This document shows positions 17,442 through 47,410 of a stretch of DNA of 64,000 nt, piece by piece (the first letter of the stretch is position 1; each line of letters starts with the position of its first letter). Made by a program: the position numbers and the translations under genes. The DNA comes from Schizophyllum amplum (Eukaryota > Basidiomycota > Agaricomycetes > Agaricales > Schizophyllaceae). The notes beneath the pieces are model-generated. The model saw nothing but the letters and a program-made list of their open reading frames with translations. It did not search any database and was not told where the DNA came from. The stretch lies in NCBI GenBank assembly GCA_007026445.1, contig VDMD01000091.1, positions 1-64,000 of the forward strand, given 5' to 3'.

Positions 17442-17450
17442 GCGAGCGAG
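17442..17450 (+). repeat. Target-site duplication of the MULE, right
   Basis: GCGAGCGAG, matching 13369-13377. Confidence 0.85.
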
Positions 17451-18416
17451 CGTCGCTTTGCGTGCGATATGCCCCCTCATGTGGGGCTCTGTAACCCACT
17501 CTCGCTTTTTATCCCTCTATGATACAACAGGTGAAGTGCTCAACAAGCTCTTTGCACGCACACCCGCTGGGGTTCATTGTGTGCGTTGTTCACCACGTGG
17601 TCCAAATAGAGCCAAACATGGACCTTCTTCTACTGACATTTTGAACTGCCTTCGGGCTGGTCTCTGCCTATACTAAGAGTTTTTAGGCTATCCTATACCT
17701 ACTACAGTACATCTGGCATCCTCAATACCTTCATCCATAGTCCACAAATTGTTCAGCACCTCATTTTGTTGCTGTCACCCATGTCACCGAGTGTCACACA
17801 ATGTGACTTGTGTGACTCGTGTGATCTGGGTCACTCGGGCGAGTGACTTGTTCGCAACCACCGCTACCGCCACTGCCAGCGCATACTGTGCTCACTTCAG
17901 TATGTCCTCAAGCTTCTGGTCCAGTACTGAGTCTTCGATAAGTTGTGTATCTTATCAAATTCATGCTTAACAGTGAGAGGAAAAGTGATATTAGAATTCT
18001 CGGTATCAAGGTTGATTAGATTATAATGGTGCGTGGGGGACATGCGCATGCAGCGCGCCCGGAGCACTTTGTTTCTTCCGTCCATCGTCGCAAAGGCGGC
18101 CATCTCTTTTCTCATCATATATCCCTTCTTCAAATAGCGGACATCTCTTCAGGCTGCCAGTGGGCGCGGTCCCGCAAGGCTTGCACACACGACTTGAGGC
18201 CTCGTGCGCGTTCAATAAGGTCAGGATATACGCCTTTGTGAATGCCAATAATTCCGCTCATACAAGCATTACAGGCCTTGTGATCCATCAATTCACACCG
18301 TGCAGGCGCGGTGCAGACTTGGAAGACCTGCTTGCTTTTTGTTGCGGCGGCGTTGTTTACGTACGTCGTCGGTCTACTTATTTTTGCTAAGTTTCTCATT
18401 TTATTTCAGATTAGCC
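17451..18416. other. Intergenic region with a GTGAC/GTCAC cluster
   Basis: No supported gene. Positions 17766-17850 hold about eight GTCAC or GTGAC pentamers in both orientations. A second cluster lies at 20700-20790, beyond the two genes that follow. The rest is AT-richer than average. Confidence 0.4.
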
Positions 18417-19120
18417 ATGTCGGATGCGCAGCCGTCCGCATCGGCTTCGAAGCGGCAGCGCTCTGGCTCTCCGCCGGGTCAGCAAGCTCGAAAGAAGACA
18501 AAGCCACTACCAACCAGGAAGCAGCTCAGGCAGATGGAGAAGAGGAGGAAGAACGAGGAGACACCGCCGAAGCGGCCAGAAAGCTACCGCGTCACTAATA
18601 AAGACCTAGCTGACAAGGCAAAGAAAGCCATATACGTACGTCTTTCCTCTTCTGCTTTTCATGCGGCGATTTCTCATGTGCCTTTCAGAATGCGGTTAAC
18701 ACGCACATACGCGCGCTGGCTGTCATGCCTACACCACAAAAGGCAGCTGATCTGCGCACGAGATCAGACCGGGGACGAACTGATGGTTTGGGTACAAGGC
18801 CCACTCGGGCTTGCTCCTGTATCGGCCAGGCCCCGGTTGAAAATTCAGATTACCACCATTTTGACTCGGTAGGTCGAAATGACATCGCGTGTATCCGGTG
18901 TATCCGGTGTCGTCCCGAGCTGACAGGCTCCGCCTCGAATGGAGACCAGCATCGGGGTCCGATTTCGAGTGATAAGACCACCTACCTGATACGTCGCGCG
19001 CAAGGTCTGTGCGGTCTTGTCACGAACGTGAGGCAATCCGTTCTCTGTTGCTTACTGATCTTGCAGTGGAATGGGATCGTTGCAGAACTGGTTGATTCAC
19101 AATTTATACTGCAAATGTAG
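18417..19120 (+). CDS. Hypothetical basic protein
   Basis: Exon 1 (18417-18635, 73 codons) starts MSDAQPSASASKRQRSGSPP and is lysine/arginine-rich (RKQLRQMEKRRKNEETPPKR), consistent with nuclear targeting. It ends KKAIY before GTACGT. Exon 2 starts at 18689 after CTTTCAG with NAVNTHIRALAVMPTP and stays open to a stop at 19118-19120. Exon 2 after about 18860 has no convincing features and may contain a missed intron. I do not recognise the family. It converges on the minus-strand gene ending at 19147, with only 26 bases between. Confidence 0.45.
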
Positions 19121-19146
19121 CTTTATATATATATATACAAATAGAT

Positions 19147-20599
19147 TCACTGCCTTGCGGTGCGCTTGCGCTTCGGCGCTCTCGTGGAGCCCGATGGTAC
19201 CGCTGAATTAAGCACCGTCTTCGCTGCATCATCGAGTTTGACCATCCAGTCCGGAACCTTGTTCGGCTCGAGAACACGGACTTGCGTGACCGTCGGTGGG
19301 CCATATGTGCTCTTGTCCTGCTCGTAAGCAAAGGTGAAGGCGCTGTGGGACATAATGAGTGTCATTAAAGGTACGTGTCGGAAGCTGACACTCACGCGTC
19401 CATCTCAGGTTGGGTCTTCAAGTCTTCTTTCCACTTAGCTAACTCCTGGTCCATAAATACCCAGTACTCGGTAGCGCGCTGCGGCTCTTGCTCTTCAATC
19501 ATCTTGAGATACTTCACCGTCCTGGAGCGCTGTAAATTGGTCAAAGACGGAATGCAAACCATGCACTGACTACTCACCAGCCATGCAATGCGTGTATACG
19601 TGGTCAGCATGGGGCTGATGTTCAGAGGGGAGATAATAACGCTGGTGAGCGCGGCAATATTGCGCGTGGAACTGCCCTGAGGGATAGACTCAATGATCTG
19701 GATGGTTATGAGTACACGTGAGTGAGATAGGAAAAGTAACATTACCGCTTTCTTAAGCTCGCAGCGAAAGTTCGAAAGTACCGCGCCGATCTCCTTGAGC
19801 ACGACACCTTTTCCCGTGATGTCGTTGTCACCCGGAAGATCGGGCGCCTTGAGGGTCTTCAGAGCGCGCTGGTTCTTGTCAGCAACATCGAAGTGCAGGA
19901 GATGGAATTTACATACAAAGACGGCCTCGTTGATGTCTTTGCTGCGGTAAGCAGTGAGCTTGGCAGAGAGGAGAAGGACACGGGCGTTCAGAGCGATCGA
20001 TTTCTGCATGAGAAAGATGTCAGACTACCAAACAAGTAGCGAACGGGTAACACACCTTCAGATCGGAGCTGAGAGAGAAACGCGCCCGATCTTCCATGTT
20101 GCGTAGGCGTTGCTCGATCTTGGCAGCGACGCAGGTGACGATATACCCAATCTCTTGGAAGCTGTTTGCCTGCACGTCAAAGTTAGTATAACAGTCATTG
20201 AACGACTGCGTCAGCACGCACATTTGCCATCTCGAGAGTAAGGTCCTGCGCTGTCGCATCTAGGTCCAGCTTGCCGTGAAGGCGCATCTGAAGGGCTTCG
20301 AAGCCGGGGATGAGAGAAAGGGGAAGAACAGCATAGTCAGGGTTGACGCGCTGCGACGACTGCGCTCCTGAAGGAAACGCGTGTTGGCCATCGCCACTCG
20401 CGCCGTCTGACGGGGCACCCTCGCCACCCATGCCGCCGCTCGCGAACGGATCGGTGAAGGTTTGCTGGTAGGCCCCGTCATCGTTCAGGTCGTGGTGAAG
20501 GCCTTCAGCGGCTTTGTTGGCGCGATACAACTCCAGGAGATCGTCGTGATCGGGAGTGTCGATGTTGCTGGGAGATGGGGAAGGTGGCGAAGAGCTCAT
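19147..20599 (-). CDS. Hypothetical helical protein, seven exons
   Basis: Begins MSSSPPSPSPSNIDTPDHDD at 20599. Exon 1 is 20222-20599, exon 2 is 20056-20169, exon 3 is 19917-20003, then four more exons to the stop at 19147, all with GT-AG introns of about 45-60 bases and in phase. The product is about 385 residues. Exon 1 is Ser/Gly/Asp-rich; the middle is helical (LPLSLIPGFEALQMRLHGKL, AAKIEQRLRNMEDRARF, VVLKEIGAVLSNFRCELKKA). The end is basic (RAPKRKRTARQ), suggesting a nuclear protein. No known domain was recognised. It is divergent from the transposase-like gene at 21113, and intact splice sites suggest a live gene. It may belong to a transposon bounded by the GTGAC clusters. Confidence 0.6.
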
Positions 20600-20699
20600 G
20601 ACGAGGGAAGAGCGTGAGGCTGTTGAACGTGGTTGGGTGATGTTTGATGAGCATGGTGAGACGGTGGTTTATAAGGTGCAGGTGGCGGTCAAGAACACT

Positions 20700-20790
20700 C
20701 TTTGGGACCAAGTGACAGTCAAGGCAACGCAACATAAAGTCACAGTACGTGACCATCACATTCGAGCCGACCGAATGTCACACCCTAAAG
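20700..20790. repeat. GTGAC/GTCAC motif cluster
   Basis: About six GTGAC or GTCAC pentamers within 90 bases, in both orientations, resembling the cluster at 17766-17850. Together they bracket the genes at 18417 and 19147. Confidence 0.4.
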
Positions 20791-20879
20791 TCTCTTTTGC
20801 CGCAACGCCTCATATCGCACTCTGCTTCATCCGAACTACCTGTCCATGCTGCAGTGCAGCTCCGTACATCTTATGAATG

Positions 20880-21112
20880 AAACGCTTCTCTCTCAAGGGG
20901 TGTGCACGCAACACGCCGTACGAGAACTTGAGGTTTCCGAGTCCTGGCGTCGGCGCGTTGCCAGTTCAAGACGGTCATAACTGAACTGGTCTTTCCAACG
21001 CTGGCGCTGTTATGAACTTCACAGACACGTCAGCTGAATGCCTTGACCTCTCTCGCTGTTTCCCCACCAACCACCATCAGCGACAACTTGCGACGAACTC
21101 TACAACCACAAC
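20880..21112. other. Short intergenic region
   Basis: Upstream region of the gene at 21113; no further features identified. Confidence 0.35.
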
Positions 21113-24100
21113 ATGCCTCGCCCGCGCAAGGCTCTTCTGGAAGGTAGCCTCGTAGATAGTTACTATATTGATTGCATATCTTGCTAAATCATGTCTTCCA
21201 GGATTCGAAGAACTGCCCGAGGGACGCGTGTCCTGCACTGCATGTGCGCAGTTTGGCAAGAGCGACCTTCTTCGAGGCTACCAGGCAACACATATTGAGA
21301 CCGAAAAACACGCAGAATGTGTACGCCTTCTTGACGCGCGCCGCCTTGAGGAAGAAGCGCGACAGAAGAATCTCAAGGAGCTCTATACGAGGCGCGAGCA
21401 ACCAAACCCTACCTACTCACCGTCTCCCAACATCCCACGTCCCTCCATGTTCCAAGCCGCTTCAGCCATGCCGGAAGCACCCGTCCTTCAAAACGACACA
21501 CCCACTGCCTATATTCCAGACATGAGTGCAGTTATACCGGGGTGCGGCATGGATATTGATGAGCCCCCGGACATTGAGGCCGAGTACGCAAGGTACGCGC
21601 GCATTGCCGAGCAACTACGTGCGCAGGCTCTGCACGAGGAGGAGTTTGTCATTCCTATCGAAGAGGACGATACAGAGCCTTACATGCCTGACGAGCTCCG
21701 AAACCGTACGTTGCTTGTTGTTGCTCGCTCATGATGATCTTACTCATTTTTGCGTAGTTCTGGGGGTGGGAGACGACGACAGCGAAGAGACTTATCACGT
21801 GGATGCCCATGAAGCGCAAAAGTGGAGGCCATACCCAGACAAGATTGTACGTCCGTATTTGGTCCAGTGTTGTCGCCATAGACTTACCTCTGCATGGTCA
21901 GACTCTATTACTTGATATCATCGACAACCTACCCCGCCTGCGCATGTCGACAAGCCAGTTCCGTATTGTTCTTTGGCTCCTGAAAGAGTGCGGAGTCAAT
22001 AATGTGCCGTCATACGACAAGTTTCGTGAGGTGCAGGCGGATGTTGGCAAGACGTGCGGGACAGCAAACACCGAGGAGCATGTATCTGCCCTCGGCAATC
22101 ATTTCTTCACCAATAACATCGCACACTCGATTGCACTGGTACGTATTATGATGATCCGTATCTCTATCATCTAATTGACATCCTTCTATAGGACTTTGCA
22201 AACCCCGAAGTCGCTAAAAATCTGAATTTCTATCCAGAAGAGGTTGAGGACGGCCGGATTTCAGAAGTCTGGCAGGCTAAACGCTGGAAAGAATTTGGTC
22301 CAGAGGAACTGACGCCAATGTACGCTCGTGGCCATAAGAGGTTCTTCATAGAGGAGCTTTGTGAGCTTGATGATGGCCGCTACGTTGTGCCTCACTCGTG
22401 GATCATCCGAAAGGGCGAGCTCACTGCTGACTGCTCGGATGTTCTTGCATCACCTGTGCGTAGTTTATATTCTCCCCTTCTCTTGTCTCACATGTCTTGT
22501 CAGGCTGGCTGGTCAATATCGTCGGACAAACCACATGCTGTGAAGGCTCGAGAATTCAAGTATACGTACGAGGATATCATCGCTCGTATTGATGGCCCTC
22601 CGAGCTGGATTTCAGGTGAGATAATATACAAAAATGCGCACACAACCTTTGACACCATGCATTTTCTGCAGAGACTGTTTCCCCGCCGATGCTACATCCG
22701 ATGCGCCAGCTAGCTCCGGACTGCGATGTGTATGTCGTCATGGCACCCGTCTGGGCAGACGATGTATCAGGCAATAGGAGCAAGCAGTATAACAAGCACA
22801 TGAACATGTACGCCGCAAACTCGAATCTGCCTGGGCGTCTTCTCCAGCAAGAATATTTTGTACGCTTCGTCTCGACATCGCCAAACGCGACTTCGCCTGA
22901 GCAATTTGCGGCAATTCGCGACCAGATCAAGTGAGTTCCTTATCCGTGTGCTTCCCAGTCGCCGATCAAGTCCGTTGAATCTGACACAAAACTACAGTGC
23001 CAGTCAAACAAATCCCATCAAGTGCTACAACGCCGATACGCACCGAAATTGCGCCGTAATTGTACGATGTCCCGCTCTCCCAGCAGATAATCCTCAACAG
23101 GCAGAAGAAGCGTCACATATCGGTGGCAACGGCAACTGCCCGTGTCGCAAATGTAAGGTTGGTGGTCCGCAGGCGGTGAAGCAAACCAACGACGGCTATC
23201 ATGCCCACCACATGGTACGTTGCCCTATCTAATCATTGCCGAGTTCCATTCTAACTCTTGCCCAGGTGGGTGTTGCACGGAGCGCCTCCGAGATCGTGGA
23301 GGAGATCGAGAAACAGTTCGAATGTGCAATGACCGGAGTTGCCGAGAGGGTGACAGAGCGACAGAGAGCAACGGGCACAAAAGACAAAGTCGCAAGCCAT
23401 TTCACTGCGATTCTCATTGACAAAGCGCGTGCACTCAAGAAACAGAACCGCTCCGGTGATGAGATCTCGCGAGAACTCCACCAGTGGCTTGACGAGCAGC
23501 CCGGTGACAAGATGAATCCACTTTTGTCCATCTCAGGTGCGGTCTATCTACCGTCTGCCTTCCCCAGACGATTTGCTCATATATTTCCCCTGATAAGGCC
23601 TTGACCCATCGCAAGACACACCAGTCGAGATTCTACACACGGTGCTGCTTGGGATTGTGAAGTATGCATGGCACACGCTACATACATCCTGGACCGACGA
23701 GTCCGACCGCACTTTGTTTACGATTCGTCTTCAGTCGACAGATATCGACGGACTCAGCATCGCACCCATTCGCGCGGCCTACATGATGCAGTACCGAAAC
23801 AATCTCATCGGCAAAGACTTCAAGACTCTTATGCAGACGGCACCATTCCACGTTCATGGCAACTTGTCAAAGGCGACCGAGAAGCACCCAAACCGCTTTC
23901 CACTTGTCCGAGCAATTGGTGAGTTGGGTGCTGCTCTTTGGGTCCACGAAATCGACAACATGGATCAGTATCTGGTGAGCCGTTGTGATGTCTGAACGTT
24001 CTGGGGCAATTATCTAATGATTATCTGCAGAGCGACCTCGAGATTCTCACCGCCAATGTGCTAGACGCTTTTGACGAGATGGACTGCAAAAAAATCCTCG

Positions 24101-24304
24101 TCAAGATCAAGCTGCATATGCTCCCTCATCTGATCGAGGACGTTCGTCGCTTCGGCCCCGCCATCCGTAATTCTACAGAAGTTTTCGAGTGCTTTAACGC
24201 AATCTTCCGTCTTTGCTCAGTACTCAGCAATCATCAAGCCCCAAGTCGCGACATAGCGCGCAAGTTCAGCTCGCTCGACCGTATCAAGCACATCCTCAGC
24301 GGAG
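21113..24304 (+). pseudogene. Transposase-like protein, N-terminal part (split gene X)
   Basis: About ten exons with short GT-AG introns, starting MPRPRKALLEG. It belongs to a large transposon-derived Agaricomycete family I recognise by its motifs but cannot name. In order: CTACAQFGKSDLL (Cys pair), LLKECGVNNVPSYDKFREVQ, WADDVSGNRSKQYNKH (acidic residues in a DDE-like setting), VRFVSTSPNATSPEQF, a Cys motif block (DNPQQAEEASHIGGNGNC, then CRKCKVGG), DTPVEILHTVLLGIVKYAW and KFSSLDRIKHILSG. The frame is cut at 24304, inside the codons for SGG, by the 3.2-kb element starting at 24305. The missing C-terminus (GGYWKEGNIWVQAG onward) lies on the opposite strand at 32679-31667. Before the break it was apparently a complete gene. 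It resembles CMC/tnp2-type DDE transposases in layout; this is inference. Confidence 0.7.
24297..24304 (+). repeat. 8-base TSD CAGCGGAG of element copy A (left half)
   Basis: CAGCGGAG here; its partner is at 32672-32679 in reverse complement, beside the other copy. In gene X these eight bases are the only sequence shared by the two broken ends. Confidence 0.9.
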
Positions 24305-27300
24305 AGGACCGTCCCTACCATTATCTAGATACGACCAGTGCTGGCAGGGGGTCGTATTCTGATATCACCCAGCAGTACAGGGACAGTATTGCTGGGTGGT
24401 ATCTCATTGTGGCTGATGTCCTTTTCTGGAATATAGCTGTGTATTGATTATGATTTATACCTACGTATACCTAGATTAATTGTTGGCTGCCGGTCGTGCG
24501 CCACCCAGCAATTCTTCCCCGCCGCGACACGTGCGCGCAGCCACGCGCTCGGCTGGTACCGCCGCCCCGCCGTCGCCGCCGCTCCGCCGCCGCCGCCGCC
24601 GCCTCTCGCACTGCCGCTCGTACCGCCCCGCCCCCTTCCTTGCCCCCTTTCCCGCCCCCTCGTCATGTTGTCGCCCCGCAAACGCGCGCTGGCAGTGCTG
24701 TGCTGTCCCTCCCATGGGCACGCGCACTGCTTCCGACGTACCGCCGATCACCACACTTGTCCCGCGCCGCCATCGACATCGCCTACGACGACCTGCCCCT
24801 TGCCCTCCCCTCGCCCATTGCCATTACGCTGGACTCCCGCATCCCATGCCGACCCTCAATGTCACGACAACGACGAGCAAACAAGCTATGAACGCCTACA
24901 CCCTCAACGAGAATTTCACCGCCGTCGACGGTCGCCGGCGATCGCACTCAGGGCATCTCATTTCCTTCACATCCATGCCGCCTCCATGCCGCCTCTACTG
25001 CCTTCCCCCAAACCCCACCCCGAGAGACGCGTCCGCGCTGTATGCGACGCGGCGACATCGCAGACGGGCGCTTACGCGTCACGTCAACACGATCACGTGA
25101 CTAGGCGTGATCAGTGTTCGACTTCGTCCGTAGCGCGCGCTGCGCCGCGGTCGCATGCGACCGCCAACGGCGGCGCTACTATAATATATCTATACTTACC
25201 CTACATTGTACCTCTGTGTATTGTATTGAGTGCAGTCAATGAAAAATGACGATGTGGATAACCCAATTGACATATGGCCTGATCACATAGATACTGCTCA
25301 AGTTAGTGCAGAGCGCGAGATAGAGTGGGTAGATAATGGTTTGTAGGAGGTACGGGTCAACTTGCTGAGCTCTACGGTGTGCGCGCGCTTGGTGCGCGAC
25401 CTGAGCGCGCTCCTGCTAGATGCTAAAATCTCATGCTATATTATGCCCTTTTACCTACCTATTTCTGTTCGGCGCTCTGTCATACTGCACAGTAGCTGTA
25501 TATGAGCTGTAAGGCGAGTATTTGTGTATCTACAGGCTGTGATCATTGCTCAATCGGCGTCGTCGCCGACGCGCGGAATGTCGGGCCGGTCGCCGAAGCG
25601 CGCTCGTCGTCGCTCTCGGCGACATCCGTGGGTCGAAGCAGGCAAGTGTGGGGCCGCGGACAAATCGGAAATGTCTCTGACAATCTGCTTGTCGGGGTAC
25701 ATGGCTTTCAATCCCCCTCGATCACTGAATTCGATTCGGAATTGACATCAAGTATCTGGACGGACAGTACTTGACTTGAGTGGAACTTGAAGAGTCGACA
25801 CGCATCCTGAGGTCTGTGTACATGTCTAGGAAGAACAGTCAAGTTTCTGCACAGCTCCTACAGGCTTATAGTGCATACTACAGGTGAGCTTTGCGGTCGG
25901 AATCCCATGAACAATACAGAATGAACGAAACGGACTGAGAGGCGGTGTATTGTGGCTAGCCCGGTACCTCGGCAGGTAGGTCGTAGCCCGGAGGGCGTTA
26001 CATTTGAGGCAGATTCCAATGACTACATACATGGCAGGTCTTGTACCGCGTTGCCGAGCCTTTCAGATAAGCAGACACGACGCTAGCCATCATCGACCTC
26101 GCAGCGAGCGCGCGCCACAAGCGGCATCGGTGACGTGACGTCACCGACCTCTCTTGCTTTCTCCCTCGTCGTCGCGATCGTCGGTGACCGCCATGTTCGC
26201 CGTTCGCAGCTCAGTTTTATTCTCTTAAGAGTCAATGTTCGTGCTCTAGACTGAATGGTGCGTGCTTTGGCTTGTCATACCTGTAACATAGCTGACGAAA
26301 AACCTCAACAGGTTTGTCCCAACGTCCTGGACCAATCCCCCTCGGCGTTTACCGCACATCTCCACCCTTCCATTCGAGACTTCAACGTCCCCGAAAGCTA
26401 ATGGCCGTTACGCTCTCCTCAAATATGCCTCTCTCTCACAGAACCAACGGATCTGCACGACCAGCCGCGTCCCCGCCCTCGCCTTCTTGATCGACTGCAG
26501 GACTGGAACCAAAGGCGGACGGTGCGTGCAAATCAGCGTCCACCTAGAATTGTGCTGAATATCTAAGAATCCCAATAGCTCGTCAACGAGCGTGGAGCGT
26601 TTCCCAATGGGAGCGTGATTCTCCCTCGACCGCGCGCTCCTCCCTCGATCGCGCGCCCTGCTTTGGTCCACCCCTCTCCCCCATCGCCTTCTTTGGGCCT
26701 ATCCCCACCCCTAACTCCCATTGCCGGCTCTGTGGCGACATCCGAGCCAATGAGCACGAGACGCTCGGATGCGCGCGTGGCTTTCGCCTTGTCGCTGTAC
26801 TCGCGAGCACCCCTGCGCGGCGTCCGCGCTCTCGGTCGTGCGGGGCCTTGTACGTCGCTTTGCAGCCCAAGCGCGAGCTCGCCGCGGCATCGCTCGCAGA
26901 GGCTTGTCCACAGCGTGCAGCGCACGATCGTGGTCACAGCGTGCCAGTCGCGTAACACGTCTACGTGAGTCGTTCCGTGCTGCGTCGATGAGATGCACGG
27001 GGAAGCGCGGGGGACGTTGCGCGCACGCTAGACGCGCTGGCGGCAGCGGAAGGCGAGGGCGGCGGCGGGAAACGAGGGCGACGGCGGGAAGCGAGGGCGG
27101 CGGCGGCGGCGGCGGCAGGGGAAGCGGCGGCGGCGGCGGCAGGGGGAAGCGGCGGCGGCGGCGGGAAGCGCTGGCGCGCGCGGCGGCGGGAGGCGGCGGG
27201 AAGCGCAGGTGGTGCCGGCGGCGGCGGAGGCGACGCGGCCATATATGGAAGCTGAAACGGCGGCGGGGACAGCGCGGGCGGTGAGCAGGCGGCGGGCCGT

Positions 27301-27532
27301 ATGTAGGGCATATTTACGCCTCATTTGTATGTATAATACCCACCAAATACCACCTTATTGACCATTAACTATGAACAGCGACGTATATAATTCAACGAGC
27401 CTGCGGTCATAAATCCCCCGGGGTCGTAATTCAATATTGCCAGTGATTACTGACTCAGTACAGCTGGGCGATATTGGAATACGACCCCCTGCAGCTACAG
27501 GGGATATCTCAATACGGCCCCGGCCAATGGTG
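24305..27532 (+). mobile_element. 3.23-kb non-autonomous DNA element, copy A (left arm)
   Basis: Near-identical to 32680-35910 in inverted orientation; differences are a C4/C5 run and a few GGC units. The 8-base target duplications suggest a hAT-like class. The extreme 40 bases of the two ends are not a clear inverted repeat, but 34-base subterminal repeats (CAGGGGGTCGTATTC core) lie at 24345-24378 and 27458-27491, facing inward, with 30 of 34 matches. Near the right end more GGGGYCGTATT motifs repeat. Open frames inside are arginine- or proline-rich and low in complexity, with no transposase motif. It contains a palindromic GTGACGTGACGTCAC near 26130 and a GGC-rich stretch at 27040-27230. 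Confidence 0.85.
27040..27230 (+). repeat. GGC/GCC trinucleotide-rich stretch
   Basis: Interrupted GGC repeats within copy A, mirrored in copy B at about 32980-33175. Unit numbers differ slightly between the copies, as expected of a microsatellite. It causes long Gly/Arg- or Ala/Pro-rich open frames that are not real genes. Confidence 0.8.
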
Positions 27533-27540
27533 CCGGTCTG
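27533..27540 (+). repeat. 8-base TSD CCGGTCTG of element copy B, displaced
   Basis: CCGGTCTG directly abuts copy A. Its partner CAGACCGG (reverse complement) abuts the outer end of the other copy at 35911-35918. Confidence 0.9.
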
Positions 27541-27577
27541 CTCGGGGCACCTCGGGCCGGATCCCGTTTTTCCAGAT
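27541..27577 (-). mobile_element. Displaced terminal fragment of transposon Z
   Basis: A stub of the element whose main part is 35919-41388. On the minus strand it begins CATCTGGAAAAACGGGATCC (27578 downward), and the right end read inward begins CATCACAAAAAACGG, so the two form an imperfect terminal inverted repeat. It interrupts the tnp2 gene after the codons for RIPH. Confidence 0.6.
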
Positions 27578-28113
27578 GTGAGGGATGCGGAGCGGAGAGA
27601 TGGTGATGGGTAGGCCATATGTGAGCAGAGTGGCTTGGATAATAGAGATGATGGTGTTTAGGATGATGTCCAGGCCACAGAGAAGCACATTGGATGCATA
27701 TTGCGGAAGACCAGTGCGGAGGTTGAGCCAGACTGCCAAGAAGCAGCACTGCATCTCAATGAGTGTAGTAGGAATGTTGATATCTGTGCATGCTATGAGT
27801 ATAGTACCAAGGTGAACGATGCACGGATGATAGCATTACCCTTCGGTGTACTCCTCTCCCTCCCGCCTGAGACCGATGATTGCCGCCGTTTTCTCTTCTC
27901 CCCCTGTGACCTCTTCTTCTTTTTTCTTCCTCTCGCTGGTGCGCCATCTGCTTCGTCGTCTGCTTCTTCATTGGCTGCTATATCGTTCTCTCGGTGTCGA
28001 TTATACACCGGCGTAGAAACCCAGCGACCTTGAACAGGATACCCGTAAGCATCTGCAGTCTCCCGGCCACAACCCGCACTGATACAGCTACAGATGACCT
28101 CGTTTTCGGCCAT
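27578..28113 (-). pseudogene. tnp2-like transposase, N-terminal part (split gene)
   Basis: Two exons, 28113-27840 and 27783-27578, in phase. Exon 1 begins MAENEVICSCISAGCG, with VQGRWVSTPVYNRHR and a basic KKKKRSQGEKRKRR. This matches the N-terminal Cys motif and RNKHR-type element of Agaricomycete tnp2-family transposases. Exon 2 (FLAVWLNLRTGLPQYASNVL then ISPLRIPH) fits the segment just before the family's PHDVRTAYKRC. The C-terminal part starts with exactly HDVRTAYKRCSIEPEI at 41389. The reading phases agree at the CAC codon. It is separated first by transposon Z and then by the inversion that put this part on the minus strand. Confidence 0.65.
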
Positions 28114-28339
28114 AAAATGAGATAGAATGACAAGGCAGGGCTGGGAGATGGAGGCACAAGGCAAAAGGTGATGGACTGGACTGACAATAGCGCGCTAGTC
28201 GTAGTTCCATGTTCAAATCCCGAAGTGCGCTCAAATTTCAATATAAAAATATGTGGCACATACATACAGATACGGTCATCCAAAACTACAACTACAGGTG
28301 CTACCGGTAGCCCTGCATCCAGACTACATGACAAAAAAC

Positions 28340-30977
28340 TCAAGTACCACCTTGATCATCCACCACCATCTTCGCCCCAGCCGCCTCCGCTTGACGAGAG
28401 CTTGCTGCGGCAGTAGCCATCTGGCGCGTCGTCTTCGAAACCGGTGCCCTGCCCGACCCCTTCCCTTTACCTGACCCGCCCGATGACGAGGCTTTGAGAC
28501 GCTGCCGATCTTCCTTGCCAAGGTATCGCCCATGATCGCGGTCAGCATAGACCTGATCCATAAGATACGACGCGCCGTGTTCTTCAAACTGAGCGATAGC
28601 TTCGGGCTCGTTGAAGTTCGGTAGCCGGATCAGACCCGGATCATTAGGATCGCCCAAAACTGCCTTCCTCATTGCTCGCAGGATGGGGATGGTGTGACGT
28701 GGTACACCGCTCGGAAGCTGCGAGGAAAGGGCCAGTAGCTGGTGCCACCACTGAGGGTCCTTCATATGCGGATGTGTCGTCTTCCAATCCCCAGCTGGGC
28801 CCTTGCTGTACGGCGAATACGTCGGAGCGCCGCCCTGTTGCCGCACCCCACCGCGCACCCCACCGCGGTGAGCCGGAGGTGGGGGAGGCGGAGGCGGGGG
28901 AGGCGGCATAGGCTCTAAGGCAGCGCTCATAACTGCACCGGCACTGCCGCCAAGATCAAGATGATGCGGCGGCGATGGAGTACGATGGGGAGGAGAATGA
29001 CGAGAAGATGGTTTGGCGAGTGAGATGTCCTCGTGAGGTGTCGAGGCGGCGTAGCTAAACTCAATGTACGCATCGGCGGGCCGAGGGTCGATATCATCAG
29101 CAGGGGTGGCAGGCCGAGGATCGATGTCTTCAGCAATGATCTCGACATCGTCGTCTTCCATGGCGGCGTCGTATCCATCATCTTCGATGAAACCGCCGCC
29201 AAAACCGCCGCCGCCGAAGTTGTTGGGATTGTCGTCCTGCTCCATATTCCCCTCCCCCTCCCGCCGCTCGTCCTCGTGATCCTCGCGAGACTTGCCCTTG
29301 CCCTTGGACTGACCAGAGCTGGACGAATCGGGCTGCTGCTGCTGCGACACCGGTGCACCCTTTCCACCGTCGTCATCATCGTCGGACGAATCCGAGGACG
29401 AGAAATAGACACTGTCATTGTCGTCCTTCGAATTGGCGATCTGCTCCTCAGTAGGAAATGTGTACTCGTCGAGAACGGCCTTGCCAAACTTTGCACGGAA
29501 ATCGGCGTACGACGGGTACTTGTCGCGTAGTTCGGTGAGCTGCTCCCATGTGTTACACTCTGACTTGACAGGAAGGGCAATGCGATAGCTGTCCCCCTCG
29601 CGCGTACCGTCCATGACATATTTGCGGCGCTTTGGCGTCCATTTGTTGAAGGCGACGGGGTCGTACCAGTCGAGGGTGGTGTGCTTGGGATTTGGTATAG
29701 CGGTAAACTTGAGCTCTTGTCCCGATGGGCCAGCAACGCGACGTCGCTCATCCCTGCAATCGGTTGTCAATAAAAAGACAATATACTGCCTGAGGTTTAC
29801 TCACTTGCCGCGCTTCTGCCCGAAGTGGACCTGATCCGCACCCAATCGCTTAGGATCAATAATGTTACGGAAGACTTGAGTGAACTTGGGATTACGGTAG
29901 CGGCGTGTGGCCACACGAAAGACGGGGGGAGCGGGGCGAGTCAGCACTGGCGGCGCCTCGAAAAGTGCGGCATGCTCCTTCTTCCGTTGCGCCTTCGCCT
30001 CCTTCGCCTCCACAGCCGCAAGATGGTCCCTTGCCTGCTGCAGCTTCTTCTCCTGCTCCTTGCGCTCTCTATGCTCCGTCTCCTTGCGCGCCCGCCTCTG
30101 CTCAGGCATCTCCCGCGCCCTCCTCGCCGCCTTGTCGTTGGGCGATTCCGCTGCCCGCCTGGCCCGCTTCTCGGCCTTCTTGGCCTCTTTCGCCTCCTCC
30201 TCGTGAGCTACCTTCTCTTTCGCCAGCCGCAAAGACAGAGGCTCCTCGACAACTTGCGAAGTGGAAGGGATAGGGTGCGTCGGCTCAACCTCCATGTTGC
30301 TCGGATCCGGTCCTTCTTCGTCCTCAGAGTGTCCTCAGAGTGCGCAGCCGCCACCTCCGCGATGTGCCGTACGTAGTATGGGAAGCCCAGCTCCACTAGA
30401 TATTCCATGCGCTTCTGGGAGAGCTGTATATAGCGTCAGTAACATGGAGAATGAAATCTGCTAGCGCACGCACCGCCCTTCGACGACTCCCTATCCTATC
30501 CTTCAAAACACGCAGTGCGCGAGCTCCCGGCGTATTCTTCTCTGCACGTGCGATGCCTGCCATATAGGAGAAGACGAAGCTGTTGTAGCATCGCTCCACC
30601 CATGCCCAGTTCGCGCGAATGAGCGAAGAGCTGACACCCAGTCGAAGATAGGCGTTCTTGTCGACAGCATGGCTGAACGTCGTCATAGCAATATCACGAT
30701 GCAGTCGATTATACACCGACTTCACCCCACCCAGAGGGTCAGGGCCCCATCGCGACAGACCATGGACTGCGACTGTGCGATACATATCGAGAAGAACGTG
30801 GTCGTCGATCTCTGCAACGCTTTTCGCGATTCGACTGTTGCCGATGTCTTCAGGGGTCATGCGCCGGAGGATCTGCAAGGTCTCGGCGGCAAGGTTGATC
30901 GTGTCTGCGTTCGCCGTGAGCTCCGTCTGGACGGTGACCCCAATATCGTCGTCATCGTCGTTGCTGTACCGCTGCAT
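28340..30977 (-). pseudogene. Hypothetical acidic/proline-rich protein (gene Y) with 11-base duplication
   Basis: Three exons on the minus strand: 30977 to about 30475, about 30412 to 29806, and about 29756 to 28340. Exon 1 (MQRYSNDDDDDIGVTVQ) is helical and has no known domain. Exon 2 has a Lys/Glu/Ala-rich coiled-coil-like part (KEAKKAEKRARRAAE). Exon 3 contains LDWYDPVAFNKWTPKRRKY, an Asp/Ser-rich tract, a run of about ten prolines and a basic tail. The frame breaks in exon 2: an 11-base unit is tandemly duplicated (30321-30331 and 30332-30342), and removing one copy restores AHSEDEEGPDPSNMEVEP. Before the inversion it would have lain just upstream of the tnp2 gene on the same strand, about 230 bases from that gene's ATG. 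The function is unknown. Confidence 0.6.
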
Positions 30978-31666
30978 AACTTGTTGCTTGTAGCTGGCGG
31001 GGACAGACCACGGAACGCTCTTCTCGCTACACCACCAAAGGGACCTGAACTTGTAGACAGACCATCATCTTAGGTACAGTCTGTGTTGACAGGGGGGGCT
31101 GAACATACCCTGACTTGACCTGAGATCGACCCTCCAATCTCTGTGTCCGTTGAAGATCATGTATAAGGTTAGTAAAGGATTGATCTGAGGTAGATCTGAG
31201 CTCATACCCTCGAGCTTGTTCTGACTTAACGCTGACCTCAAATTGGATGCACTTGGTGTCTTTGGTCGATCCTGTAATCCCGACCTCGGAAATATACAGG
31301 CGCGGGAATAAGTAAGCGGATGTCGACGGTCTTATAGTAAGCAATCATAATAGGTGTTCGCATCGCTGATGGCTACGACTTGTGACGGTTTTATACCTCT
31401 CGTACTTGACACCCTGCGCGAGATACTTCACAGGAGTACTCTTATACTTGATATCTACCGTAGGAAATCACAGTTCTGCCAATACTGTCCGCGTTCTCGA
31501 ACAAAACCACCTGCACCTCCCACGCTCGCAATTACCTTTTTCGGACAACAATGCGACCACGCTCTCTTATCCTTTCGACCTTCCATCTCCTCAGACCAAA
31601 TGTATCATATCAGCATCCAATTCAAAAAGCCATGGTTCTGCTATCAGACCTGCTGCGTCAATTAAT
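30978..31666. other. Intergenic region of the inverted segment
   Basis: No supported gene. It contains scattered GACCTGAG-like strings near 31100-31200 and is otherwise featureless. Confidence 0.35.
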
Positions 31667-32679
31667 TTACTGACCCGGACCAGCTTTCCGCCGACGTTTC
31701 CCGGGCCGTCCTGGCTCAGCCTGCGACTGCTGTACAGTGTCAGCGTTTACTTCCCCTGGACCAGCTGGCACAGCTACGGCATCCACATCGTTGGCAGCGT
31801 CCTTCTGCGCTCGTAGGCGGGTAGCTGATGCGTCGTGATGTGCCCGCCGATCCTTGTACAATGGGATCGGCTTCGTCAGCTCCCGGTCAATGGCCCTCCG
31901 CAGGTTCGAGGCGTTGTGGAGGGCGTAGATGTTGACCACGTAGTGATCGTCATCGGCATGCCGGACACGCAACTGCTTCCTGGGTGTCTCGCGTCGCTCC
32001 TGGGTTTCTGCAATTTCGTAGAACTCGTTACATCCGACTGTCCGGCAGTCGTGTTGAGCGGAAAAAATGAAGACGATGTCCTGAGCACAAGCGTGAGTCC
32101 ACTTGTCCTTCCAATGCCAGCACACTCACTGAATCTGCCTTGGCTAGCATGAACTGTGCGCTTCCGTCTGTTGGGCGGCAGAGGACGGGCGCGTTGAAGT
32201 CCGGGTGCCGATGCTGTCCAATGGCGAAGAGCTCTAAAAGAATGACACCTTTCTCCGTTGAATCCTCGGGCGCAAGTATCTCCTTGATACGTCCTGGGTG
32301 TGATGTCTGCCAAAACATTTGATTACTGACGCCTATAAAGCTACGAGAATCTGCCATGCTCACCTCTCCGCTTTTGATGAAGACCCATGATCCACATCGG
32401 CAGACATCTCCGGAGTTGGCTACCACAGACTTGCCGCGTCGCCACTGGGATTCAGCGCTGTGAAGGCTGGAAAATGCGGTGCAGCTGGTTGCGCAGGCTG
32501 TTGAGCTCCAATTGACGCTTCCGTGCCGTTTCGCCTGCAAGACCATATGTCCCGCAGGAACAGAGCGAGTAGGGACCCAGCCAAGATGCCGCTGTATGAT
32601 GGGCTTCGTGTGAAGCACAGAGCGCACGCCTTCACCTGCCTGAACCCAGATATTGCCTTCTTTCCAGTAGCCTCCGCTG
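31667..32679 (-). pseudogene. Transposase-like protein, C-terminal part (split gene X)
   Basis: Reads on the minus strand from the edge of the right element copy: SGGYWKEGNIWVQAGEGVRS, PIIQRHLGWVPTRSVPAG, VVANSGDVCRCGSWVFIKSG. An intron at 32363-32307 is followed by PGRIKEILAPEDSTEKGVIL. After a second intron near 32110-32050 come DIVFIFSAQHDCRTVGC and ALHNASNLRRAIDREL, then a basic end GKRRRKAGPGQ. This is the expected C-terminus of the family whose N-terminus ends at 24304 with RIKHILSG. The codon phase joins exactly across CAGCGGAG. Confidence 0.7.
32672..32679 (-). repeat. 8-base TSD CAGCGGAG of copy A, displaced half
   Basis: The plus strand reads CTCCGCTG. It is the complement of 24297-24304 and lies next to the inner end of copy B. 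Confidence 0.9.
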
Positions 32680-35600
32680 CACCATTGGCCGGGGCCGTAT
32701 TGAGATATCCCCTGTAGCTGCAGGGGGTCGTATTCCAATATCGCCCAGCTGTACTGAGTCAGTAATCACTGGCAATATTGAATTACGACCCCGGGGGATT
32801 TATGACCGCAGGCTCGTTGAATTATATACGTCGCTGTTCATAGTTAATGGTCAATAAGGTGGTATTTGGTGGGTATTATACATACAAATGAGGCGTAAAT
32901 ATGCCCTACATACGGCCCGCCGCCTGCTCACCGCCCGCGCTGTCCCCGCCGCCGTTTCAGCTTCCATATATGGCCGCGTCGCCTCCGCCGCCGCCGGCAC
33001 CACCTGCGCTTCCCGCCGCCTCCCGCCGCCGCGCGCGCCAGCGCTTCCCGCCGCCGCCGCCGCTTCCCCCTGCCGCCGCCGCCGCCGCTTCCCCCTGCCG
33101 CCGCCGCCGCCGCCGCCCTCGCTTCCCGCCGTCGCCCTCGTTTCCCGCCGCCGCCCTCGCCTTCCGCTGCCGCCAGCGCGTCTAGCGTGCGCGCAACGTC
33201 CCCCGCGCTTCCCCGTGCATCTCATCGACGCAGCACGGAACGACTCACGTAGACGTGTTACGCGACTGGCACGCTGTGACCACGATCGTGCGCTGCACGC
33301 TGTGGACAAGCCTCTGCGAGCGATGCCGCGGCGAGCTCGCGCTTGGGCTGCAAAGCGACGTACAAGGCCCCGCACGACCGAGAGCGCGGACGCCGCGCAG
33401 GGGTGCTCGCGAGTACAGCGACAAGGCGAAAGCCACGCGCGCATCCGAGCGTCTCGTGCTCATTGGCTCGGATGTCGCCACAGAGCCGGCAATGGGAGTT
33501 AGGGGTGGGGATAGGCCCAAAGAAGGCGATGGGGGAGAGGGGTGGACCAAAGCAGGGCGCGCGATCGAGGGAGGAGCGCGCGGTCGAGGGAGAATCACGC
33601 TCCCATTGGGAAACGCTCCACGCTCGTTGACGAGCTATTGGGATTCTTAGATATTCAGCACAATTCTAGGTGGACGCTGATTTGCACGCACCGTCCGCCT
33701 TTGGTTCCAGTCCTGCAGTCGATCAAGAAGGCGAGGGCGGGGGACGCGGCTGGTCGTGCAGATCCGTTGGTTCTGTGAGAGAGAGGCATATTTGAGGAGA
33801 GCGTAACGGCCATTAGCTTTCGGGGACGTTGAAGTCTCGAATGGAAGGGGTGGAGATGTGCGGTAAACGCCGAGGGGGATTGGTCCAGGACGTTGGGACA
33901 AACCTGTTGAGGTTTTTCGTCAGCTATGTTACAGGTATGACAAGCCAAAGCACGCACCATTCAGTCTAGAGCACGAACATTGACTCTTAAGAGAATAAAA
34001 CTGAGCTGCGAACGGCGAACATGGCGGTCACCGACGATCGCGACGACGAGGGAGAAAGCAAGAGAGGTCGGTGACGTCACGTCACCGATGCCGCTTGTGG
34101 CGCGCGCTCGCTGCGAGGTCGATGATGGCTAGCGTCGTGTCTGCTTATCTGAAAGGCTCGGCAACGCGGTACAAGACCTGCCATGTATGTAGTCATTGGA
34201 ATCTGCCTCAAATGTAACGCCCTCCGGGCTACGACCTACCTGCCGAGGTACCGGGCTAGCCACAATACACCGCCTCTCAGTCCGTTTCGTTCATTCTGTA
34301 TTGTTCATGGGATTCCGACCGCAAAGCTCACCTGTAGTATGCACTATAAGCCTGTAGGAGCTGTGCAGAAACTTGACTGTTCTTCCTAGACATGTACACA
34401 GACCTCAGGATGCGTGTCGACTCTTCAAGTTCCACTCAAGTCAAGTACTGTCCGTCCAGATACTTGATGTCAATTCCGAATCGAATTCAGTGATCGAGGG
34501 GGATTGAAAGCCATGTACCCCGACAAGCAGATTGTCAGAGACATTTCCGATTTGTCCGCGGCCCCACACTTGCCTGCTTCGACCCACGGATGTCGCCGAG
34601 AGCGACGACGAGCGCGCTTCGGCGACCGGCCCGACATTCCGCGCGTCGGCGACGACGCCGATTGAGCAATGATCACAGCCTGTAGATACACAAATACTCG
34701 CCTTACAGCTCATATACAGCTACTGTGCAGTATGACAGAGCGCCGAACAGAAATAGGTAGGTAAAAGGGCATAATATAGCATGAGATTTTAGCATCTAGC
34801 AGGAGCGCGCTCAGGTCGCGCACCAAGCGCGCGCACACCGTAGAGCTCAGCAAGTTGACCCGTACCTCCTACAAACCATTATCTACCCACTCTATCTCGC
34901 GCTCTGCACTAACTTGAGCAGTATCTATGTGATCAGGCCATATGTCAATTGGGTTATCCACATCGTCATTTTTCATTGACTGCACTCAATACAATACACA
35001 GAGGTACAATGTAGGGTAAGTATAGATATATTATAGTAGCGCCGCCGTTGGCGGTCGCATGCGACCGCGGCGCAGCGCGCGCTACGGACGAAGTCGAACA
35101 CTGATCACGCCTAGTCACGTGATCGTGTTGACGTGACGCGTAAGCGCCCGTCTGCGATGTCGCCGCGTCGCATACAGCGCGGACGCGTCTCTCGGGGTGG
35201 GGTTTGGGGGAAGGCAGTAGAGGCGGCATGGAGGCGGCATGGATGTGAAGGAAATGAGATGCCCTGAGTGCGATCGCCGGCGACCGTCGACGGCGGTGAA
35301 ATTCTCGTTGAGGGTGTAGGCGTTCATAGCTTGTTTGCTCGTCGTTGTCGTGACATTGAGGGTCGGCATGGGATGCGGGAGTCCAGCGTAATGGCAATGG
35401 GCGAGGGGAGGGCAAGGGGCAGGTCGTCGTAGGCGATGTCGATGGCGGCGCGGGACAAGTGTGGTGATCGGCGGTACGTCGGAAGCAGTGCGCGTGCCCA
35501 TGGGAGGGACAGCACAGCACTGCCAGCGCGCGTTTGCGGGGCGACAACATGACGAGGGGGCGGGAAAGGGGGCAAGGAAGGGGGCGGGGCGGTACGAGCG

Positions 35601-35910
35601 GCAGTGCGAGAGGCGGCGGCGGCGGCGGCGGAGCGGCGGCGACGGCGGGGCGGCGGTACCAGCCGAGCGCGTGGCTGCGCGCACGTGTCGCGGCGGGGAA
35701 GAATTGCTGGGTGGCGCACGACCGGCAGCCAACAATTAATCTAGGTATACGTAGGTATAAATCATAATCAATACACAGCTATATTCCAGAAAAGGACATC
35801 AGCCACAATGAGATACCACCCAGCAATACTGTCCCTGTACTGCTGGGTGATATCAGAATACGACCCCCTGCCAGCACTGGTCGTATCTAGATAATGGTAG
35901 GGACGGTCCT
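32680..35910 (-). mobile_element. 3.23-kb non-autonomous DNA element, copy B (right arm)
   Basis: Inverted copy of 24305-27532. Left and right coordinates sum to 60215 over most of the length and to 60212 at the inner end, which shows how little indel change there is. All long shadow frames translate identically in both copies apart from the GGC tract and one homopolymer. Near-identity implies a recent duplication or ongoing gene conversion. Confidence 0.85.
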
Positions 35911-35918
35911 CAGACCGG
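35911..35918 (+). repeat. 8-base TSD CAGACCGG of copy B
   Basis: CAGACCGG. Its partner CCGGTCTG is at 27533-27540. Confidence 0.9.
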
Positions 35919-38900
35919 GGGCGCGCTCAGGTCGGCGCAGGTCGTCGCAGGCATGTCAGGTCGGTCAAGTCGTTCAAACTTTAGGTCCGAATGTGAGAGC
36001 ACCTTCATTGACCTGAGGTGACCTATATTCGAGATGAAAAGCTCAGGTCACCTGAGCCTGGCATTTTCTGAGCAGATTTTGCAGGTTTTACGCGGCTTCC
36101 AAATCTGAATTCAAGGAATGAAAACGAATTCTTGTATTTCATTGTGCTAGTAGTAGGACTACATAGGCTACTAAGACTACTACTCTACGCATTGAAAGCC
36201 TTGAATTGAGCACTCACCGCTGGTTTCCTTGTGCATAGTGATCATATGTACACGCAACAAATCATTGTGAGTGAACATATGTATGCAATAGCGTGATATT
36301 CTCTTACCATCGTCATGGAGCCAGGCATACGCCCCGAAGGTGCAGCCCGCTTCTGTCAACAAACGCGCCGGTAACACCGTTCACCTTCGGTGGCTGTAGA
36401 CCGATGCATCCTGGGGCACGTCAGCACACTCTCGCTGCCGGAGACACCCTCAACACACCTTTATGTAGTCCAGATCATAGATGCCCAATGCACAAAGTCA
36501 GTCGTCAATGCTCAACCGTCTACGCGGTCTACGCGGGAATTGCGGAGCGTCGCCCAGTCACAACAAACATCTGGCAAACAAGGTGTGAGAATGCAATTTA
36601 GATAAGTGCACGTAGGCCTGCTGCGCACCTAAGCACATACGGCGCCCACCGCCGTTCGCAGGTCCTTCTTCTCCTCCGCCCAGTCATCCGAGGTTTGGCG
36701 TGATACCAGCGTCCGCCGATCACGGTCGTTAAGGGGTGAAGGCGAGAGGCCCCAGATGTAGTACTAGTAGCGATTCGATAGGCGTGGGGGCGGCTGGCCA
36801 AGAAGCCAGCGCGCGCCGCACCGCCCCGGCTTGCGGTGGACGGCAGCGAGCAGCGCAAGAGCATGGATCGCCGTGCCATCGCACTGCCCCTGGCCCATGA
36901 CGCTGGCACGACCGCCCGCGCCAACCGCGTGATGGGCGAGCGCGCGCCGGGTCGAGTTCGCGAGGTCGGCCGCGGCCGCTGGCGGTGTCGGCGACGCCTC
37001 ATGCGTCCCTCCCTTTCTAGATCGTAGTATTACCTGTGAGTAATGCAACCGTCAGTTTTGCGGCCTCACAGCGGGGTACAGCGGACGTACCTGGGCAGGT
37101 GAGCGCTTACAGCGCCACGCCCGCCATTCTATCTACCGTGTACTCTTGAGCACCCCGTTTTGCATAAAGGAGGTCGAGAGGAAGGTGAGGAGGGCGAATG
37201 CCTTCAGGTGCTGGTGAGTTGAAGAGGTGCACCTGTGGCCGTAAGGTCTTTGCAAAGACCATGGACAAGTGTCTGACAGGTAGTTGAAAAGTCCTCGTAT
37301 CACTTATATACACTGCCACAGCCCTCCGGGGCCCTCCCGGCAGGGGCTCCGGGCTCGGGGGGCGACCCGAGCTGGCTGCCCGTTCGGGCAGGTGCACGCG
37401 GGTCGCTCGCCTGGCGTGCCCGGCTCGCTCCCGCGCTTGCCACCTGCCTGCGCGCATCCTCGATCACCTCCCATTTGGGCGGTGCGGGCGATCGGCACAC
37501 TCGCGGGCGTCGCGCGCGCGTCGTCACTGCCGTCGCTGCTCCTCGCCACATGTGGATCAATGAAAATATGTATATAGAATGAAGTATACATATAAAAGCA
37601 TATGTAAAGGTAAAGGGGTGGGGGAATACATGAAAAAGACGTGATGAAAATTTTCGCCGCTGCATTGCCCGTACGCGCTGGGATACGTGTGCGGGCGTGC
37701 AGGTCTGGGTAGGTGGAAGGGTATTGGAAAGGTCGCTGGAGACCTTGGTATGAGTGCCATAGGGGGCTGGGTCTCCAGCGCGCACGAGCGCGCAAGTGCC
37801 CCGCCCGGGATAGCGGCCGGCATAGCCAGCGCAACCACGTCCGCCGCTGCTGACAGGCATGGAGATAGGCGTGATGTGTTCCCGCATTACGCGCGTCGAC
37901 AAGTCGAGCGCTGGCGTGCTGCGCAGTGATGCTCGCTTGATTGCAGAAGGCGGCGCGGGGGGAAGGGGGGCGTATGCGCTAGAGGCATCGCGGGGTTCGC
38001 CTAGGCTTGCGGATGACTGTGGCAGCTGGCCTGCGCATGTTTGAGTGCCGGGAGAGCGCCTCTCGTACGTACGCTTGCCGAGGGAAAGCCGCGAGTTCCC
38101 CGTGCAATGAGTACTCGAGCGGCTTCCCCCCGACGCGCGTATGTGCGTGCGAGGGCAATGGATGGGGATGGTGATGGTAGTCTTGTAGCCGTGTGTGGTG
38201 AGAAGACGCCAAAGGCGCGTCATGCGTCCGGGAGGCGCCAATATTTGCAGGCGGGGCAGGGTGTTGGTGGGGTGTTGAGGCCGACAGCTGCTCGCGCGTC
38301 TCGGTTGCAAGGCGTGCAACGTCAGTCCAACGTATATTAAAGACATATCAGCAGAACACAACGCATGCTGGGGCGTCAACACGCACCTTTGACGCGGGAG
38401 CGCACGCGCAGCTCGCCTCCCGCGCTCGTCCTCTGTGCCGCGTGTAACAGCCCGATCCAGCCCAAATGTCAGATAATACCGTGTATCGTTGTTTGTGGGT
38501 GCGTGTAGTGAGTGGAAAAGGACGGCCGGGGTGGTGAGGGCAGACGGGCAGGGGCGGTGGTCGTGGTTAAAGATGAGAAGTTGTTGTGCGCGCACGTTCG
38601 GCATTCCGGTCCGGTCTCCGGGGCTCGTCGCCGACGCGCTCGACGACCGCCGCCGCGTTTCGGACGCCTTCCGACACAGGTTGAAAGCCTGGAGCTGCTA
38701 GAGTACCCCTAGATATTGAGATTTGCGAAGAGAGAACAGGAACTGGGGCAATATACATTGTTTTATATGCTGAAAGTTCTGCCCAAGCTTTCCTCAGTTT
38801 TCACTGTCTCTTAAGGTATACAGCAGGGCTTTCTCGTCCACCATTTGATGGCTGAGCTACAGTCAAAGCTGGAGCTTGTGTAAATAGCCTTGAAGAACTG

Positions 38901-41388
38901 TATACATGCTCATTTGGTGCCTAAATCATTCTAGATGAATGAGATGAAGTCAAATAGTAAGGGAGGGGAGTTATCTTTGGGCGTCGCACTGCTATTGTGC
39001 CATGTTCGTGGCCTCATGGTTTTGCAGTCAGTATATATAGTTGTAGATTACATCAAGTATTGTAGATCTACAGAAATTCGGAGCCATCTGACGATGCGAT
39101 CCACGGGTATCGCGCTGCGTCTTGTCCCGAACGCGCTCGAAATGAGCGCGTTCGTGACGTGACGTAACGCGTCAAAGTCATCTCTTGTCGCCATCCACGA
39201 CGCGCCCGCCGTTCAACAGCGGCTCGACGAGTGGCGCTTCCTCAAGATAGGGGTGAGGGGACTCTGGGGAGATCCCTTCAGGTGCGTCGTCATTCACAGC
39301 TCATAGATATATGCTAATAACGAACCACAGGAAGCAGCTGCAGAGTGCCTCTTGCGCTCTGCAGCTACTTACCCCGGTGCGCGTTTCGCCCGCGCAACGG
39401 CGGCTCCACCCAGCAGGTCTCACAAGACCTCTGCGACGTGTACGCCCCGCCGCGCGTCCACAATCTCCCGCGGCCCCTTCCCGTCCGACTCGTCTTGTAG
39501 GCGGGCACTCGCCCGCCTCTAGACGCCTCCCCGCCGCACGCGCTACGTCCTAGTAGCATCAGCGTGGGTAGGGGAGGGCGACGCGATGCCCGGCAACGAC
39601 GCCGATGCCCTCTGCAAGCAAGAGCACACAACACGATCGGGTCGCCCGCGCCATGTATCCTGTCCCTCACCCACCCTCCCCTGCGCTTCCGCTGCTCGGC
39701 GTGCGCGGCGCAGCGCCACAAGACATCAACCCGGCATTCAATAATGCTGCACGACGACGCTGGTTCCCGCCATTGCGCCCTGCGTGCGCCGCACCGCGCC
39801 GCGCCGTCCTTCCGTGCCGCACCTCCCTCCCGCGCCGCACCTCCCTCCCGTGCCGCCCGCATCGTGGCCCGCCCTTCTTCCACAACGAGCTCCCCAAAGG
39901 CAGTGCTCTCTGTCACCCACTCCCATCCCACTCCCCACCCCCGCCCACTCCCGTTTGCTCACTGGCGCGCGACGCGCCGGCGAAAATTTTCGCCGCGTCT
40001 TCGCGTGCTTCTGCCATGTATTTTGTTTTGGTTGTTATGTAGTCAAAATGCATATATTTTATTCTATCTACATGACCCTGTGAGTGACGAGGAGGAGCAG
40101 TGGCGGCAGCACGCGCGCGCGCGACGCCCCCAACCGCGCCGGCCAACCGCGCTGCCCGATCGGGGGTGGGCAGCGAGCGCGGGAGCGAGCCGGGCAAGCC
40201 CGGTGAGCAGCCCGCGTGCACCTGCCTGAACGGGCGGCAGGCCAGTGATAGCCCGGCGAGCCGCCCGAAGCCCGGAGCCGCCACCGGAAGGCCGCCGGGG
40301 GCCTGTGGCTGTGCATATAAGTGATTCGAGGTATTTTCAACTGCCTGTCAGGCACTTGTCCTACGTCTTTGCAAATACCTTACCGCCTCAGCTGAGAGGT
40401 GGTGGTTAGAACCGTAGCTCATGGTTTTGGGACCGTGCCGCGGTCGTGGTTGCAGTGCGTGTGTATGAATCGAGACGTAGCGTGACCAAGAGATGGAGAG
40501 GGCAGCAGCAGAGAGCTGCACGTCGGACGACGCTGTAATGGCAGTCGACATGAGGGTGGGAGGAAAGATGTGACGGATGACGGAAGCGGCCAGCCTCTCC
40601 GCGTCAGCGCAAGATCCGGACCGAGGTCCGGGCTAGTTCGATCCAAGTTCGATCGATCCTTGGGTGACCTTCTTCTCATCGTCGCCACTTGTATGCTCTC
40701 TTCTCTCTCCCCGTACGGGGCTTTCCTCGACGTTCTCTATAGGCTCTTTATTTGCTTGTGGTACTGGCCGCGTTCATCATCCAGATCGACGGAGGACAGG
40801 GCCTCGCTATGATGGCGGACGTGCATCGCGGCCCGCGCAAGGCGTGCTGCGCCTTCGCGTAGCGTGCTACTCGACGGCGAATGTCAAGCAGCGTCGTATC
40901 AAGGAGCGTCGCCGACGAGCAGCAATGCCGTGTCGGCGAGCGTGGCACTTGCGCACGCGCATCCAGGAGGTCAGAGTAGCGCATATCATTATGTACAAGA
41001 TTTTATATGCGGGTGTTGCGTAGTGACCCGCAACTGGACACGCTCGACATACGCAGCACGGACTTCGCTCAAGTGGGGGAGAAGGTTCACGACTGCTGTA
41101 CAGCTGGGTGGCCGGTGACATGGTATTACGGGCATTGTAACGTGGATAGCATCTGAATGACAAGTCAGTATACCTTACATTGCATGATTGGTATAGCAGT
41201 ACTCTCATGTGAGCTACTGTAACCACGGCTGTCTTGACAAGCATGCAGCCATCCCAGGTCGCCCAAGGTGGCCTCAAGCCTCCTCAAGCGCGCTACGACG
41301 GCCTGAGGCGACCGGACACGACTTTAGGGAGGCCCACTGGGCCGAGGTCACCTGAGGACGACATGTCGCCGAACCGTTTTTTGTGATG
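35919..41388 (+). mobile_element. Transposon Z, main part (inserted in tnp2 gene)
   Basis: The sequence between the outer flank of copy B and the CAC codon at 41389 that resumes the tnp2 gene. Both ends carry clustered AGGTC motifs: 35928-36050 (including CTCAGGTCACCTGAG) and 41257-41360 (including GAGGTCACCTGAGG). The right end reads inward CATCACAAAAAACGG, and the displaced left end is CATCTGGAAAAACGG. The target duplication is CA or CAC, that is 2-3 bases, as in CMC-type elements. No transposase was found, so it is probably non-autonomous. The fold-back element at 37236-40389 lies inside. Confidence 0.55.
37236..40389. mobile_element. Fold-back-like element with long inverted arms
   Basis: The left arm from about 37236 and the right arm ending about 40389 are imperfect inverted repeats of at least 430 bases. 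Shared blocks include TTTGCAAAGAC, GACAAGTG, CTGACAGG, AGTTGAAAA, ATCACTTATATGCAC and an AAAATTTTCGCCG block (37648 and about 39979). Open frames across the arms are Pro/Arg/Ala-rich on both strands and look non-coding. The middle (37680-39960) has no recognised gene. The exact ends and TSD could not be fixed. Confidence 0.55.
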
Positions 41389-47346: not shown

Positions 47347-47410
47347 ATACCATGTTTACTCAATACAGCAGTTCTTCATGAGACCCTTATGCTCGCTACC
47401 GCCCTGACAC

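Follow-up and report, generated by a model that had tools for sequence, protein, structure and literature searches.

Two inverted transposon copies with exchanged target duplications flank an inverted 5.1-kb segment in the genome assembly of Schizophyllum amplum

The window analysed here, the first 64,000 nucleotides of a Schizophyllum amplum contig (VDMD01000091.1, here C301:1-64000) in a 49.65-Mb assembly of 309 contigs, contains a nest of elements: a large transposon, Y, holds two further transposons, X and Z, together with a MULE-like element. X and Z are themselves each interrupted by a copy of a shorter element; these copies, A in X and B in Z, were confirmed to bound a 5.1-kb segment and to be oppositely oriented. 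A first-pass annotation had described them as the arms of an inversion in which each copy had exchanged one member of its target duplication for that of the other. The arms and the exchanged flanks are present where it had placed them, although the ends of the arms, given as 24305-27532 and 32680-35910, had to be corrected slightly (Table 1). After this correction the element spans GAGGACCG...GCCAATGGTG, the leading G being its own first base.

As assembled, A is preceded by CAGCGGAG and followed by CCGGTCTG; when B is turned into the orientation of A, it is preceded by CCGGTCTG and followed by CAGCGGAG. Exchanging the inner flanks restores both pairs. From the base composition of the window, such a crosswise match of two 7-mers has a probability of ~5e-9 by chance. 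Matching 7-mers flank 20 of the 21 other copies in the same genome for which both ends are known, and A and B are the sole exchanged pair among the 23 copies counted (A, B and the 21 others). The duplications had been put at 8 bases. However, only seven bases repeat in the copies whose eighth base differs (C245, C1:4703946, C87, C224, C255, C265:605, C248:75183 and C216), and in these a G precedes the AGGACC-type end. Since the base after the right-hand repeat is often not G, the duplication is 7 bp long and the G has to be counted with the element.

Relatives of the interrupted transposons elsewhere in the genome show the un-inverted order that the first-pass annotation had proposed to look for. 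X, split here by A, runs through without interruption on C1 (7 mismatches in 7229 columns), where the join carries one CAGCGGAG and a 319-codon frame is open across it. This is the predicted join of the two halves of "gene X", which turned out to be a transposon and not a gene; B sits in a second transposon. On C266, Y runs without a break or an inversion (75 mismatches in 16167 columns) and is un-nested and 16.1 kb long; Y has 24-bp matching inverted ends and a TTT duplication. On C113, a diverged relative of Z lacks the B insertion and has a single AGACTGG at the site. For the target sites, the comparison thus uses related copies of X (C1) and Z (C113), not the same locus. All three matches require 27533-32679 to be flipped back, and, the duplications aside, no loss or gain of bases was seen where the pieces join. 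The inner piece of Y differs from C266 at 15 of 3464 columns and the outer pieces at 60 of 12703, a similar divergence, as expected if the inner piece merely changed direction. Because C1, C266 and C113 show the predicted un-inverted joins, the inversion in the assembly of the 5.1 kb between A and B is well supported.

Table 1. Positions in the window of the two copies, their target duplications and the transposons that hold them
Feature	Position	Strand	Remarks
Copy A, putative non-autonomous KDZ-type element	24304..27532	+	3229 bp
Copy B, same element as A in inverted orientation	32680..35911	-	3232 bp
Inverted segment	27533..32679	.	5147 bp; un-inverted order on C1, C266, C113
7-bp target duplication of A (CAGCGGA), outer copy	24297..24303	+	occurs once at uninterrupted C1 site
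Second CAGCGGA, read on - strand, now adjoining B	32673..32679	-	
7-bp target duplication of B (AGACCGG), outer copy	35912..35918	+	single AGACTGG at relative's C113 site
Second AGACCGG, read on - strand, now adjoining A	27533..27539	-	
Transposon X, first part (CACCAC end)	18732..24303	+	uninterrupted copy C1:1965426-1972635
Transposon X, second part (GTGGTG end)	31030..32679	-	reversed by inversion
Transposon Z, first ~45 bp (CATC end)	27533..27577	-	reversed; exact edge uncertain by few bases
Transposon Z, remainder (GATG end)	35912..41388	+	
Transposon Y (CACTG ends, TTT duplication)	13147..52478	+	un-nested copy C266:775649-791749
Inner piece of Y	27578..31029	-	reversed vs both neighbours 17440-18731 and 41389-52479

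Both breakpoints fall in sequences that are themselves transposons, and no ordinary gene disrupted by the flip was seen. Since the flip lies wholly within transposons, the sequence seen gives no reason to expect a consequence for the host. Y is itself inserted in sequence that C264 holds uninterrupted. The insertion in Y at 13378-17439 has near-inverted ends, an 11-bp repeat, GTGCGAGCGAG, at its edges and a MULE transposase domain.

The wider element family was surveyed with a left-end query of 996 bp and a right-end query of 213 bp, which matched at least 52 and at least 33 places in the assembly, respectively. The 21-copy count leaves aside C101 (left end lost), C244 (the contig stops inside the copy; apparently the same locus as C87), four copies with one end recovered (C280, C301:92409, C275:14320 and C261) and the left-end-query places C149:710-1677, C240 and C249. 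Left ends are nearly constant, GAGGACCGTCCC, but four copies have the GAGGGGTGTCCC type and one has GGGGACC; the right end is of the CAATGGTG type in every copy where it was recovered. In an alignment of 18 copies (A, B and 16 others, including C101 with its left end lost and its start guessed), A and B agree at 100% of aligned sites, and neither exceeds 76% identity to any of the others; the other close pairs, at 94-97% identity, sit on different contigs. Aligned with each other, A and B show 0 substitutions and three one-base indels, at A positions 26364, 26470 and 27117. As a yardstick for indel noise, the overlap of C244 and C87 has 0 mismatches and six gap columns in 2452 columns. These two contigs apparently hold one locus assembled twice, and on that footing the three indels between A and B fall within assembly noise. 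The flank and the element copy are common to C244:1960274-1962448 and C87:4853-8036.

Length is kept at 3.1-3.3 kb in 15 of the 17 copies with both ends, though most pairs are merely 70-85% identical, and it is kept without a transposase gene. The sole other full copy with unmatched 7-mers, C265:111666-114894, is flanked by GTGGTGC and CGATCGC; it is perhaps another rearrangement, and no partner was found among the flanks at hand. On C275, left and right family ends near 14733 and 46983, ~32 kb apart, both carry the 7-mer CTCCAGT and mark either a giant copy or a copy with nested insertions.

A and B have no long reading frame (the longest is 270 codons, stop to stop) and carry no transposase. 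A 13.85-kb element on C1 (4313171-4327019), flanked by its own 7-bp duplication GTTAGGA, resembles A at its ends, the first 62 bp being 89% and the last 86 bp 82% identical. Its frames match a KDZ transposase (PF18758, 3.6e-25) and a CxC2 cysteine cluster (PF18803, 6.1e-17), while five other scanned frames of this element gave no family match. It is a candidate source of transposase. A second large copy, C236:290146-304443 (14.3 kb), has the family ends and CGTGAGG on both sides. Given a relative with similar ends, a 7-bp duplication and a KDZ domain, A and B are best read as non-autonomous KDZ-type transposons. The Kyakuja families of Agaricomycotina are described as having 7-bp duplications, CA..TG ends and no terminal inverted repeats (PMC12730594). 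The duplications fit (20 of 21 copies), as do the KDZ and CxC2 domains of the large relative, but A and B end in GA..TG, with imperfect inverted ends; for their termini they were not filed as Kyakuja. A placement in the Zisupton or Dileera lineages, for which 8-bp target duplications are given (PMC12730594), does not agree with the duplication length of 7 bp. Among the KDZ1-3 elements known from Cryptococcus, KDZ1 is reported with 8-bp duplications and 241-bp inverted repeats (PMC12810828), as against 7 bp, imperfect inverted ends and no transposase in A and B.

The divergence between copies falls from Y (0.46%) through X (0.10%) to A and B (0 substitutions), which agrees with the order of nesting. 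X and Z would have inserted into Y, A would then have inserted into X and B into Z, and the 5.1-kb segment would have flipped after the insertion of B or together with it.

We consider it likely that a crossover between the inverted copies A and B flipped the segment. We favour this course because recombination is expected to occur readily between inverted repeats that are identical, 3.2 kb long and separated by 5.1 kb. Ectopic recombination between them would exchange their inner flanks and hence their target duplications, and the exchanged 7-mers, found where 20 of 21 other copies have matching ones, support it; the Galileo inversions in Drosophila are described as having arisen in this way (PMC2775673). 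The first-pass annotation took the crossover as proven, which goes too far, since hybrid element insertion would leave these duplications as well and is expected to yield identical copies. Several points weigh against a crossover. The exchanged duplications do not separate it from hybrid element insertion. According to the published discriminator, chimeric copies point to ectopic recombination and identical copies to hybrid element insertion (PMC2775673); A and B have no substitutions, so any chimera would be invisible, and what decided the matter for Galileo is not available here. Identity is the prediction of hybrid element insertion, and crossover between recent sister copies also allows it. 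An assembly flip, too, would leave the same signature.

Hybrid element insertion would create B, invert the segment and exchange the duplications in one step: once A had been replicated, transposase would bring together opposite ends of its two sister-chromatid copies, and the hybrid so formed would insert into Z. The replicative "adjacent inversion" of Tn3 and Mu would yield the same product. The outcome is described as strikingly similar to that of ectopic recombination but with identical copies (PMC2775673), and A and B, whose differences come down to the three indels, are each other's sole close relatives among the 18 aligned copies and lie 5.1 kb apart, the remaining pairs at 94-97% being on different contigs. 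On the other hand, it needs an aberrant transposition of which nothing shows KDZ elements to be capable, and the identity of A and B would also be accounted for if a sister copy had recently arisen nearby and a crossover had followed; we regard hybrid element insertion as a possible but rather doubtful origin. It is improbable that the segment was merely joined the wrong way round between the identical 3.2-kb repeats during assembly, the chromosome being un-inverted. A wrong join within the repeats would give exactly these flanks, and the family troubled the assembly at least once, as C244 stops inside a copy. However, the assembly kept C1 and C301 apart over 5576 columns of X that differ by 7 mismatches, a stretch that exceeds the 3.2-kb arms; C1 reaches a length of 4.7 Mb, and the gaps between C244 and C87 look like long-read indel noise. 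Two independent insertions, with flanks matching crosswise by chance or later change, can hardly be credited: unmatched flanks do occur in one other copy (C265:111666-114894), but the chance probability given above and the un-inverted joins on C1, C266 and C113 contradict them.

Transposon-mediated inversion is already known, from Galileo in Drosophila, and the present case is an unusually well documented one. Its special point is completeness: relatives of the ancestral joins, covering both insertion sites and both sides of the inner piece, are kept in the same genome, so that the succession of events can largely be reconstructed with no need of a sister strain. The case is thereby suited to calibration, and offers a place to test which of the two, crossover or hybrid element insertion, acts in KDZ elements. 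Hybrid element insertion and related alternative transposition are described for the P element and Ac/Ds (PMC2775673, PMC8225341); with both copies at one site, the hybrid element model gives identical copies and exchanged duplications. If true here, the window would document a natural case in which a KDZ element of a fungus underwent alternative transposition in a single event. Reversed-ends transposition, by contrast, is described as involving copies at separate sites and leaving deletions or duplications (PMC2775673), and none were seen at the joins here. The closest likeness is to the Galileo-mediated inversion 2z3 of Drosophila buzzatii (Delprat et al. 2009, PMC2775673), for which cut-and-paste copies in opposite orientation at the inversion ends, exchanged 7-bp duplications and single target copies in the un-inverted arrangement are reported. 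The 2z3 copies are chimeric, which decided for ectopic recombination, whereas A and B are identical; and here the segment is 5.1 kb long, lies inside transposons and has its un-inverted references in other copies of the same genome.
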